DNA of 44,005 nucleotides from a virus (IMGVR_UViG_3300036715_001102:1-44005); one strand, 5' to 3'. Shown: positions 8,856 to 12,246, counted from the stretch's first letter. Notes: generated by a model not told the origin, from the sequence alone. Numbers and translations: made by a program.

Positions 8856-9061
8856 TCTTCGACTCCCAAATCGCAGGTATCCCCTGCCAGATCAATGTCA
8901 CCTATATGACGGAGTACATTCCTAAAACCTGGTATGACCCTGAATGTGGTGGTGACTTTGAATTTGAAGTGCTCGACCGCAAGGGCTACAAAGCCCCGTG
9001 GCTCGAGAAGAAATTAACCCCGGCTGATGAAGCTAGAATTTATGAAGAGGCGATAGCATGA
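8852..9061 (+). CDS. Small conserved hypothetical protein
   Basis: 69 residues from ATG 8852, chosen for the ATGA overlap with the upstream stop; the longer frame from 8813 lies wholly inside the previous gene. The sequence QINVTYMTEYIPKTWYDPEC and GGDFEFEVLDRKG suggests a beta-rich fold like the small phage proteins that describe a 'Y.P.....P.CGG..EFE..D' pattern. The TGA overlaps the polymerase ATG at 9058. Function unknown. Confidence 0.7.
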   Translation: MIFDSQIAGIPCQINVTYMTEYIPKTWYDPECGGDFEFEVLDRKGYKAPWLEKKLTPADEARIYEEAIA

Positions 9062-12057
9062 GTTGGTCCTCCGCCGTACGCAAAGCGGTCATCCAGGCAT
9101 TTAGCCCAATACCGGTAGTGCCGCGCGCAATCGAGTGGAACAAACTAGTTTCACTCGATTTTGAAACTTACTTCGATAAGGATTATACGCTCAGTAAATT
9201 GTCCACGTCTGAGTATATTCGTGACCTACGATTCAAAGCGCAGATGGTCGGGATCAAGATCGGACGCAAGAAAACAAAAGTAGTACCACATAAAAATATT
9301 GCTGCCGAACTCTCTAAAATTGACTGGGCGCAGTATGATCTTCTTTGTCACAATACGGCCTTTGATGGTCTTATACTTAGCCATCACTATGGCGTTATAC
9401 CACGCTTTTATTACGACACTCTCTCTATGGCGCGGGGTCTGTATAGTAATGATATTAATGCTGGTCTTGACGATGTTGCTCAGTATCTAGGCAAGGGTAG
9501 CAAGACACCTGATGTTCTCGAAAAGACACGTGGTGTTCTGAATTTCTCTCCTGCGCTCTATAAGGAATGCGCTGGCTACTGTGGCAATGACGTTGACTTG
9601 ACTTTCGATATTTTCGAAGCGATGGCGCCGCTCACACCTGAATCAGAAATGCGCCTGATCCACATGACCGTGCGCATGTTCTGTGACCCGGTGCTGCGCG
9701 TCGACATACCACGGGTTCAGGCCGAGCTGGTCAAAGAGCTGCAAATTAAGGAAGAGATGTTGATGTCGATCGATGTTAGCGGCTTTCCTGATAAAGAACT
9801 CAAGCTCGCTGAACGCAGTCTGCCAGAACATGAGAAGCGTCTGCTCAAGGCGAAGAAGATTATCGGTAGTAGTGAGAAGTTCGCTGACCTGCTGCGTGCC
9901 GAGGGCATCGAGCCACCGGTCAAGATCTCACCGTCATGGATCGCCAAGAAGCCGATCGATCGCGAAGACAGCAAGAAGTGGAGTTACGCCTTCGCTAAAG
10001 ATGACGCGGCGTTTATTGAGCTGCCCGGCCGTGTCGATGAATGGGCTAGTCACCTTGACCGGAATAAGGTCAAGGACATACCCAAGATCATGGCGCTACA
10101 AGAGCGCGTGCAGGCGCTGGTCGACGTACGTATCTCAGTCAAGAGTACGACGAATGTTACCCGCGCTCAACGGTTCTTGAATGCCTCAGCGAATGGTTGT
10201 GCCCTGCCTGTCGGTTATGCCTACGCACGTGCGCATACTTATCGCTGGGGAGGCAACAACAGCATGAACATGCAGAATCTCAAGCGCGGTGGAGAACTGC
10301 GCTTGTCGATCCTGGCACCGAAAGGCATGCAGTTGGTCGTGGTCGATTCGGGCCAGATTGAGTGCCGCGTTAATGGCTGGCTATGGGATCAGGATGATCT
10401 CATGGACGCATTCCGTAGCGCTGATGGTGGTACAGGTCGTGATGCTTACTGTAATTTCGCTGATCTGATCTATGGTTTCGAAGTAACCAAAGATAACAAG
10501 ATGGAACGCTTCGTCGGCAAGGTCGCAGTCCTTGGCTTAGGCTTTCAGATGGGCGCAGAGAAGTTTCAAGGCACACTAGCCAAGGGCGCTCTCGGCGGAC
10601 CGCCAGTATTCTTCGAGCTGGATAAGTGCAAGAGCATCGTCAATGCCTACCGCCGCAAGAACCACAAGATTGCCGGTGGCTGGGTTAAGTGTACCCAGAT
10701 CATCGAAGAGATGGCGAGTGGTGTTACTGGTTCATGGAAATGTCTGCACTGGGAAGAAGGCCGCATCTGGGGACCAGACGGTACCAGCCTGAAATACCCT
10801 GACCTCAAGAAATCGAGAAACGAGGACAAGGGATGGGACGAGTGGACGTATGACGCTAAAGGTCAGCGCAAGAAGATCTATGGCGGTCTACTCTGCCTTG
10901 GATCTAAAACAGATCTATTGACACTCGAAGGGTGGAAGCCTATTATTGACATAGTTCAATCAGACCTCTTATGGGATGGCGAATCGTGGGTCACTCACGA
11001 TGGACTTGTTTATAAAGGAGAGAAAGAAACTATCGATTTCGGCGGTGTACGCATTACACCTAAGCACGAAGTTCTCGTCAATGAAGTATGGACCCCAGCA
11101 AAGGATACAACCTATGATCAAGCTACATCATCGTGCGCGAGATATTACAGGACTCCGGTTCGGGAAAATGCTGGCAGTTTCGGCTATGGGGAGCGACGGG
11201 AGACGAACGATCTGGCATATCCAATGCGACTGTGGGGTAACGTCGTTCATTTCAGCCAGCGAATTTTTGAAAGGTCGTACGCGTTCATGTGGGTGTGCAA
11301 CTTCGCAAATGATCTCAGAGTCACGTACAACTCATGGGTTAAGCAGACATCCGGTATATGCAGTATGGCGAGGGGTAGTAGCAAGATGCACCAACCCGAA
11401 TCACGCTGCGTGGGAGAACTACGGTGGACGTGGGGTAACAGTATGTCCAGAGTGGCTTCAGTCATTCGAAGCGTTCTGGGCGGATGTCGGGCCTACCTAC
11501 GAGGAAGGCTTGACCTTGGACAGAATAGACAACGAAGGTTCGTACACACCGAACAACTTTCGGTGGGTTTCTTACCAAGTGCAGTGTTCCAACCGCAGAA
11601 GCAATGTCTATCTGGATACCCCGGACGGAAAGATGACAATGGCAAAGGCGAGTCGATTCTACGGTATAGGGAAAACAACTCTGTCGTACCGCATCAAGAT
11701 AGGCGTTCCAATAGCACAGATGTTCAACAGGCCGAAGCGGTCTACGACATATTAAACGCCGGACCTAATCGTAGGTTCACTATAAGGGGTAACGACGGCC
11801 AGCCGTTCATCGTGCACAACTGCGAGAATATCGTACAGTGGTTAGCACGTATGGTCGTGGCTGAGCAGATTCTAGAGATCGATAAGAAGCGCCGTGTCGT
11901 TATGATCACACATGATGAGAGTGTCGCTGTCGCCCCTACTCGCTCTGCCGAAGTCTGCTTTAGAGAGATGATAAAAGCGTTCAGAACGGCGCCAGCGTGG
12001 TGTAAAGATATCCCGCTTAATGCTGAGGGCGGTTTTGCTGAGAATTATTCGAAATAA
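9058..12057 (+). CDS. Family-A DNA polymerase with 3'-5' exonuclease, interrupted by an intein
   Basis: 999 codons; the mature protein after splicing would be about 690 residues, normal for phage PolA-type enzymes without a 5' nuclease. Exonuclease motifs: SLDFETYF (D34/E36), HNTAFDGLIL (about 95-104) and YCGNDVDLT (about 180). Polymerase motif A VVVDSGQIECRV (Asp about 430), motif B KVAVLGLGFQMGAEKF (about 488), motif C ITHDESVAV (His-Asp about 952). The intein occupies residues 613-921, exactly within the conserved YGGLL/CENIVQ segment between motifs B and C, so an unspliced product should be inactive. This is the replicative polymerase. Start set by ATGA with the previous gene. Confidence 0.92.
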   Translation: MSWSSAVRKAVIQAFSPIPVVPRAIEWNKLVSLDFETYFDKDYTLSKLSTSEYIRDLRFKAQMVGIKIGRKKTKVVPHKNIAAELSKIDWAQYDLLCHNTAFDGLILSHHYGVIPRFYYDTLSMARGLYSNDINAGLDDVAQYLGKGSKTPDVLEKTRGVLNFSPALYKECAGYCGNDVDLTFDIFEAMAPLTPESEMRLIHMTVRMFCDPVLRVDIPRVQAELVKELQIKEEMLMSIDVSGFPDKELKLAERSLPEHEKRLLKAKKIIGSSEKFADLLRAEGIEPPVKISPSWIAKKPIDREDSKKWSYAFAKDDAAFIELPGRVDEWASHLDRNKVKDIPKIMALQERVQALVDVRISVKSTTNVTRAQRFLNASANGCALPVGYAYARAHTYRWGGNNSMNMQNLKRGGELRLSILAPKGMQLVVVDSGQIECRVNGWLWDQDDLMDAFRSADGGTGRDAYCNFADLIYGFEVTKDNKMERFVGKVAVLGLGFQMGAEKFQGTLAKGALGGPPVFFELDKCKSIVNAYRRKNHKIAGGWVKCTQIIEEMASGVTGSWKCLHWEEGRIWGPDGTSLKYPDLKKSRNEDKGWDEWTYDAKGQRKKIYGGLLCLGSKTDLLTLEGWKPIIDIVQSDLLWDGESWVTHDGLVYKGEKETIDFGGVRITPKHEVLVNEVWTPAKDTTYDQATSSCARYYRTPVRENAGSFGYGERRETNDLAYPMRLWGNVVHFSQRIFERSYAFMWVCNFANDLRVTYNSWVKQTSGICSMARGSSKMHQPESRCVGELRWTWGNSMSRVASVIRSVLGGCRAYLRGRLDLGQNRQRRFVHTEQLSVGFLPSAVFQPQKQCLSGYPGRKDDNGKGESILRYRENNSVVPHQDRRSNSTDVQQAEAVYDILNAGPNRRFTIRGNDGQPFIVHNCENIVQWLARMVVAEQILEIDKKRRVVMITHDESVAVAPTRSAEVCFREMIKAFRTAPAWCKDIPLNAEGGFAENYSK
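10894..11820 (+). other. Intein in the DNA polymerase (splicing domain in the polymerase frame)
   Basis: 309 codons, polymerase residues 613-921. Block A begins at Cys613 (CLGSKTDLLTLEGWKPI). Block B is GVRITPKHEVLV with the conserved T-x-x-H. The C-terminal blocks F/G read VYDILNAGP...FTIRG...PFIVHN, followed by Cys922, giving the canonical His-Asn/Cys junction. Removing it joins GGLL to CENIVQWLARM, a continuous polymerase motif. About 70 N-terminal and 28 C-terminal residues look like intein. The roughly 210 residues between them have no recognisable domain in this frame, because the DNA there encodes an HNH protein in another frame. Confidence 0.88.
11114..11755 (+). CDS. HNH homing endonuclease nested out of frame inside the intein
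   Basis: 213 residues from ATG 11114, preceded by AAGGA (11101-11105) with an eight-base spacer. The family opening (RDITGLRFGKMLAVS) begins within the first residues. Order: DITGLRFG segment, zinc-ribbon CDCG...SCGC (about 38-62), the HPVYAVWRGVVARC and WENYGGRGVTVCPEW segments, the nuclease core LDRIDNEGSYTPNNFRW (about 145-160), QCSNRR, and a C-terminal helix-turn-helix-like DNA-binding region (MAKASRFYGIGKTTLSYRI). Its frame is +1 relative to the polymerase, and its TAA (11753-11755) lies in the intein block F codons. The frame extends upstream to 10976, but that part is a shadow of the intein. Expected to cut intein-less polymerase alleles. Confidence 0.85.
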   Translation: MIKLHHRARDITGLRFGKMLAVSAMGSDGRRTIWHIQCDCGVTSFISASEFLKGRTRSCGCATSQMISESRTTHGLSRHPVYAVWRGVVARCTNPNHAAWENYGGRGVTVCPEWLQSFEAFWADVGPTYEEGLTLDRIDNEGSYTPNNFRWVSYQVQCSNRRSNVYLDTPDGKMTMAKASRFYGIGKTTLSYRIKIGVPIAQMFNRPKRSTTY

Positions 12058-12066
12058 GGAGATTAG

Positions 12067-12246
12067 ATGATTGGTTTTACTGAGCACTCCCACGAACCCA
12101 AACGCACGATAAAGTGCGATCGGTTCTTTTGTAAGAATGATAGCACTCGTTGGTTCCAAAGCACGAGTGTACGTATTTGCGATGATCCAGAATGTAGGGA
12201 TCATTTCCTTGAAATGTGGAACAAACCAGAGGACGACCATGATTAA
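12067..12246 (+). CDS. Small Cys4 zinc-binding protein
   Basis: 59 residues; TAAGGAG just upstream (12055-12061 region) supports ATG 12067. Cysteines at residues 17, 22, 38 and 43 (CDRFFC and CDDPEC) form a likely zinc-binding site of the kind found in short phage proteins. It follows the polymerase immediately and overlaps the next gene by eight bases. Function unknown. Confidence 0.65.
   Translation: MIGFTEHSHEPKRTIKCDRFFCKNDSTRWFQSTSVRICDDPECRDHFLEMWNKPEDDHD

Follow-up and report, generated by a model that had tools for sequence, protein, structure and literature searches.

A phage DNA polymerase intein overprinted by a candidate HNH homing endonuclease gene in another reading frame

Described systems closest to the locus

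In textbook inteins the endonuclease is fused in frame to the splicing domain. The locus analysed here shares with such canonical inteins a HINT domain, an endonuclease situated between the N- and C-terminal blocks and insertion at a conserved polymerase motif, but its endonuclease lies outside the intein polypeptide, in another frame and with its own start and stop. In the fractured genes reportedly described by Dassa et al. in 2009, said to be split inteins, a gene for the endonuclease likewise stands between N- and C-intein and is translated on its own. The present intein differs from these in being contiguous in one ORF.

Our literature searches for a two-frame intein layout found only papers on the ShiLan domain, which was described in mycobacteriophage DNA methylases (PMC11855218, 2025) and also from phage Applejack (PMC12613952). 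In both ShiLan and the present locus, a phage gene contains an insertion that keeps its frame free of stops while a complete HNH lies concealed out of frame; evidence of mobility is a further shared feature. However, ShiLan lacks a splicing domain and presumably stays in the protein; no Shine-Dalgarno (SD) sequence was found for it, and leaderless initiation was proposed. In the stretch studied here the HNH sits inside an entire HINT intein, and the class to which it belongs has starts enriched in SD sequences. An earlier note on this DNA knew of no described intein with such a layout, and this agrees with the literature searched, although the claim has to be qualified. For overlapping frames in actinobacteriophages PMC11855218 cites Gosselin, Arsenault and Gogarten ('Actinobacteriophage Inteins: ... 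Non-Canonical Architecture', bioRxiv 2025.01.02.630785) and Gorbalenya ('Non-canonical inteins', 1998), and these two works, to go by their titles and the context of their citation, may contain prior descriptions of out-of-frame intein endonucleases.

Among sequenced phages, the polymerase inteins of APSE and of Jerseyvirus SETP3 are related to the intein described here. Annotation places APSE-1 P46 and an HNH of Sodalis phage SO-1 within the polymerase gene, but most of the records examined go no further than the name 'DNA polymerase' or 'intein-containing DNA polymerase precursor'. In the APSE, SETP3 and SO-1 records examined an intein, a nested HNH or an 'intron' is noted, and a two-frame intein architecture is not described. 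Many phage polymerase records thus hide an unannotated putative nuclease gene. The SO-1 polymerase (NC_013600, our locus L116) is annotated with a type I self-splicing intron, an annotation that is called into question, as the evidence favours an overprinted intein.

The polymerase intein and the HNH gene within it

The window, by which we mean the whole stretch of DNA analysed, is the 44,005-base IMG/VR virus record IMGVR_UViG_3300036715_001102, a single metagenomic contig. Its plus strand carries a 999-aa ORF, open throughout (9058-12057), with similarity to DNA polymerase A and a 3'-5' exonuclease, which we read as a family A DNA polymerase precursor consisting of extein and intein. The N-extein (9058-10893, plus strand), comprising the 3'-5' exonuclease region and part of the polymerase and ending in ...YGGLL, was assigned by sequence similarity and by the intein-free homologue KPP25, and the C-extein (CENIVQWLAR... 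ITHDES...; 11821-12057, plus strand) matches PHROG 7766 DNA polymerase. Between the two, the splicing blocks delimit an intein of 309 residues (C1...HN, then Cys+1; 10894-11820, plus strand), residues 613-921 of the precursor, which read CLGSKT...GVRITPKHEVLV...(linker)...VYDILNAGPNRRFTIRGNDGQPFIVHN|C. Its computed removal leaves 690 aa and a junction, YGGLL|CENIVQ, that matches YGGLL|TENIVQ in the KPP25 polymerase. KPP25 therefore represents the empty site for the window, as SETP13 does for its relative SETP3, and the site lies in a core motif of the polymerase.

The N-terminal splicing blocks (C1 and block B, TPKHEVLV; 10894-11106, plus strand) match the splicing-block profile with an E-value of 2e-35 and are predicted to adopt a HINT fold. 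The C-terminal block (AEAVYDILNAGPNRRF...VHN; 11731-11820, plus strand) was recognised by the same type of profile, and its first part overlaps the end of the HNH gene together with its stop (TAA, 11753-11755). Across 28 aligned relatives the residues expected of a class 1 intein are conserved: the nucleophile C1 (Cys613), T55 and H58 of the block B motif TPKH, and N309 and C310 of the terminal VHN|C are invariant, and H308 is nearly so. An AlphaFold model built from the window sequence and 25 relatives has pLDDT values of 94-97 in the splicing parts and mostly below 50 in residues 87-273, which overlap the HNH. The best Foldseek matches of this model are mini-inteins and HINT domains, with a probability of 1.00 and E-values of about 1e-3 to 1e-2; these modest values are probably due to dilution of the model by the linker. 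The linker itself (residues 87-273; 11152-11712, plus strand) is a stop-free read-through of the host frame, and the model predicts it to be mostly disordered. By its sequence and predicted fold the window intein would be a class 1 HINT intein capable of splicing, and both its parts lie in the one ORF at 9058-12057, not on separate ORFs as in a split intein.

The same residues bear on the idea that the insert is translated and simply retained in the polymerase. The ShiLan domain lends this some plausibility, being an out-of-frame HNH insertion that persists without splicing domains (PMC11855218). It is nevertheless very unlikely here, given that the splicing signatures (C1, the block B T and H, the terminal N and C+1) do not vary among the 28 relatives and that the insertion point falls in a polymerase core motif.

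Within the intein, and offset by +1 from the polymerase frame rather than in frame with the splicing domain as a canonical fused endonuclease would be, lies an HNH endonuclease gene of 213 codons (11114-11755, plus strand). Its product belongs to the HNH family on the strength of its match to PHROG 374 HNH endonuclease (E 1.2e-58), other matches and conserved core residues, and it consists of a four-Cys, zinc-ribbon-like segment, the HNH core and a C-terminal HTH (HTH_psq). Other resources were less informative: Pfam did not name the HNH core and returned only the C-terminal HTH and a weak CapR match, NCBIfam gave no HNH match, and a sequence search of the PDB gave weak matches only (2cob LCoR, E 0.023; 1u3e HNH homing endonuclease, E 0.22). 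The AlphaFold model of the HNH frame has a pLDDT of 85, and Foldseek found no meaningful or confident structural match to it in the PDB. The HNH frame is open over 10955-11755 and contains further in-frame ATGs at 10976 and 11081. Homology begins at about residue 4 of the version starting at 11114, which makes 11114 the best start. It is preceded by an SD-like AAAGGA (11100-11105, plus strand), with an 8-nt spacer to the ATG, inside the end of the N-terminal splicing block. When residues and frames were recomputed, the positions given in the earlier note (10894-11820, Cys613, Asn921, Cys922, HNH 11114-11755) all proved correct, as did its description of a complete +1 HNH gene with SD, 8-base spacer, ATG and stop.

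Taken together, we consider it highly probable that the locus is a phage polymerase HINT mini-intein whose read-through linker is unconstrained in sequence and whose DNA also encodes, as an overprint, an independently translated HNH homing endonuclease. Ribosomes initiating at the polymerase start would stay in frame 0 across the HNH region and so make the precursor, from which the intein would excise itself by means of Cys1, the block B TxxH, the terminal His-Asn and Cys+1. Other ribosomes would start internally, at the SD in the end of the N-terminal splicing block, and produce free HNH protein. This protein would be expected to cut intein-free alleles at the insertion site, upon which the whole unit would be copied in. 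On this reading of sequence and predicted structure, in which splicing, synthesis of the HNH from 11114, cleavage and homing are all presumed, the layout would offer a selfish gene a route to expression that is independent of splicing.

Distribution of the layout and maintenance of the host frame

A tblastn search of phage records found the same layout in APSE phages, the Caulobacter phages GB2A, RW, RLK and KcrB and Shewanella phage SFCi1, with an HNH identity of about 45-48%. In APSE-1, GB2A and SFCi1, which were examined in full, the HNH lies at +1 inside an open polymerase frame. Single-protein searches of viral_contigs with the window HNH or polymerase gave no matches; an alignment of the splicing blocks only, with no endonuclease included, did find relatives when searched against IMG/VR and GTDB genomes. 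Each locus was scored by the positions of its N-block, C-block and HNH. There were 82 intein instances, 60 of them non-redundant at 90% nucleotide identity, in which both blocks lie in one open ORF and the HNH lies between them in another frame, at +1 in 68 and at +2 in 14; APSE-1, GB2A and SFCi1 are among them. The +2 form occurs in the Jerseyvirus SETP3, EP23 and others (examples are L101, L103, L104 and L102, from phages SETP3, MR14, EP23 and EBPR siphovirus 2); 166 phage records contain an HNH of the SETP3 type and 363 match the SETP3 polymerase N-extein. Of the 86 intein loci in which the blocks flank an HNH, none has it in frame with the splicing domain, and four have the blocks on separate ORFs with the HNH between them. 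A further 25 open intein instances have no HNH. They are mini-inteins whose blocks lie no more than 292 nt apart, a distance that leaves no room for a hidden in-frame endonuclease of some other family. Some mini-inteins (L005, L007, L011, L013) retain short out-of-frame remnants of an HNH, and in L065 the HNH carries a nonsense codon while the host frame is still open.

These searches are the comparison of splicing blocks and frames that the earlier note had proposed, and they dispose of the two findings it thought would tell against the layout, namely in-frame relatives and compensating indels. As the window is a single metagenomic contig, one might suspect an error of sequencing or assembly, or compensating indels in an in-frame endonuclease that has decayed. 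The same offset, however, recurs in independently sequenced isolates (APSE-1, GB2A and SFCi1; SETP3, EP23 and others have a layout of this kind in the +2 form) and in dozens of non-redundant instances, and the HNH frame is intact and under purifying selection. Error is refuted at the level of the class and has next to no probability for the window.

The earlier note gave about 4 in 100,000 as the chance of an open host frame across the HNH gene and took this as a sign that the frame is maintained. A uniform random-codon model gives 3.6e-5 for zero stops, in agreement with that figure, but a better null is provided by synonymous shuffling that preserves the HNH protein and its codon usage. In 20,000 such shuffles of the window HNH the mean number of host-frame stops was 8.3, and no shuffle was free of them. 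The 49 non-redundant +1 instances (9,875 codons) together have 0 host-frame stops against 313.9 expected, and their third frame contains 530 against 500.9; the 10 +2 instances have 0 against 32.9 in the host frame and 120 against 123.6 in the third. For the two classes combined the result is 0 against the 347 that synonymous shuffling of the HNH predicts, where openness of the host frame was a condition of inclusion, one failed by only 4 of the 86 HNH-containing loci. In 12 free-standing relatives of the HNH, the would-be host frame has 200 stops against 193.2 expected. Maintenance of the host frame is therefore upheld by the class as a whole.

The peptide encoded in that frame seems to be another matter. 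Substitutions were counted in 93 pairs of related HNHs. In the +1 set, changes that are nonsynonymous for the HNH occur at 0.22-0.25 per opportunity and synonymous ones at 0.76-0.81, and dividing the changes by their effect on the host frame makes hardly any difference to the rates (0.758 vs 0.813; 0.250 vs 0.224); as the pairs share common ancestry these rates are descriptive and not independent tests. They indicate purifying selection on the HNH, while in the host-frame peptide almost nothing is constrained beyond the avoidance of stops. The suggestion that another-frame translation of the HNH DNA serves as the intein linker thus holds as far as the open frame is concerned, with the refinement that the linker, by these sequence comparisons, is kept open without its sequence being conserved, and is predicted to be disordered. 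The two functions would share DNA but not protein, one frame being stop-free and the other encoding a conserved enzyme. This amounts to a naturally replicated test of overlapping-gene evolution in which one frame is constrained only against stops, and natural mini-inteins that tolerate some 190 residues of near-arbitrary linker may be of practical interest.

An open host frame also bears on whether the insert might be a group I intron that carries the HNH gene and is removed from the mRNA. Phage introns commonly carry HNH genes, and the record of Sodalis phage SO-1, which has a like layout, notes that it 'contains type I self-splicing intron'. Yet an intron does not require a host frame free of stops in dozens of lineages, nor would it account for conserved protein-splicing residues and a predicted HINT fold. 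Rfam found no intron family over 9000-12200, and for the window we rejected an intron, which has hardly any likelihood, on that ground.

Probable translation of the HNH, mobility and origins

The manner in which the HNH is expressed was approached through the sequences around its start, with the expectation for SDs built from the intein amino acids and codon usage. Compared with synonymous resampling the SD of the window ranks at 0.37 and is individually not significant. The +1 class as a whole has stronger SDs, with a mean score of -6.81 against -5.08 in resampled sequences (Wilcoxon p 1.5e-6, n=48), so the enrichment is a result at the level of this class and not of the window. In the +1 class the SDs are often placed in block B codons, as GAGGT from His-Glu-Val or AAGG(G/A) from Glu/Lys-Gly-Trp; the window has a third placement, AAAGGA...ATG, which is also seen in L055 and L056. 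The +2 class showed no SD enrichment at the starts tested, and it is possible that the mechanism of initiation differs there. In 9 of the 10 loci tested from this class, conserved Glu-Trp codons create the ATG or GTG with which the HNH frame opens. Across block B this frame has 0 stops against 15.5 expected (10 loci), compared with 81 against 63.1 for that frame in loci of the +1 layout, and the N-terminal part of the +2 HNH appears from the sequences to overlap splicing block B itself.

These observations are also relevant to programmed frameshifting from the polymerase frame, which would yield a fusion of N-extein, N-intein and HNH and no separate HNH protein. Such a fusion could be made in the window, whose +1 frame runs without a stop from 10955, upstream of the HNH start and within the intein, and the lack of SD enrichment at the +2 starts tested would be compatible with it. 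In most +1 relatives, however, the HNH frame is closed shortly upstream of the HNH start, the +1 start codons have SDs stronger than the amino acids predict, and the +2 frame opens at the Glu-Trp start codons. We regard frameshifting as unlikely, and internal initiation is the preferred route.

Mobility is suggested by the comparison of SETP3, which has the intein, with SETP13, which has none: their exteins are 96% identical over 733 aa, with one clean gap of 299 aa. Insertion sites differ among relatives. Overprinted inteins are hosted by polymerase A and by SNF2-type helicases (L034, L056), and the host protein of L083 is, from its sequence, perhaps terminase-like. In a tree of HNH proteins those of the +2 form make up one distinct clade (support 100/98). 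Free-standing HNHs branch off between this clade and the +1 proteins, so that at least two origins are likely.

Split versions of the intein, with N- and C-intein on separate ORFs, are present in the same family (L012, L060, L061, L080, L017, L074, L092), and most have an endonuclease-like ORF between the halves. In L012 (4025-5206) the N-half ends early and is followed by the HNH, whose stop overlaps the ATGA at which the C-half begins. The sequences suggest a path from overprinted to split intein, with its direction inferred, and overprinted inteins are a plausible origin of split ones. With somewhat less assurance than for the reading of the window itself, we think it rather probable that overprinted inteins form an old and widespread class of mobile, cis-splicing elements, with at least two HNH origins (+1 and +2), hosts that include polymerases, SNF2-type helicases and probably terminase, an occurrence in well over 100 sequenced phages, and a place as a step toward split inteins.

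Several further loci were noted in the course of the analysis. More than one such intein is found per gene in L051, L073, L065 and L083, and L051 and L073 each have two inteins in one polymerase, with one HNH placed at +1 and one at +2. In L083 (4158-6335) two overprinted inteins are followed by a further Hint/intein domain. L091, L094, L095, L099 and L100 (Bacillota/Actinomycetaceae) carry a more distant HNH at +1, with the insertion in the polymerase at K(V/I)A(E/V)LA|C, and possibly represent a third independent origin. Finally, in Salmonella phage MET_P1_122_58 (L111) a DNA polymerase gene is followed directly by a free-standing relative of the HNH, which may have given rise to the embedded form or been derived from it.
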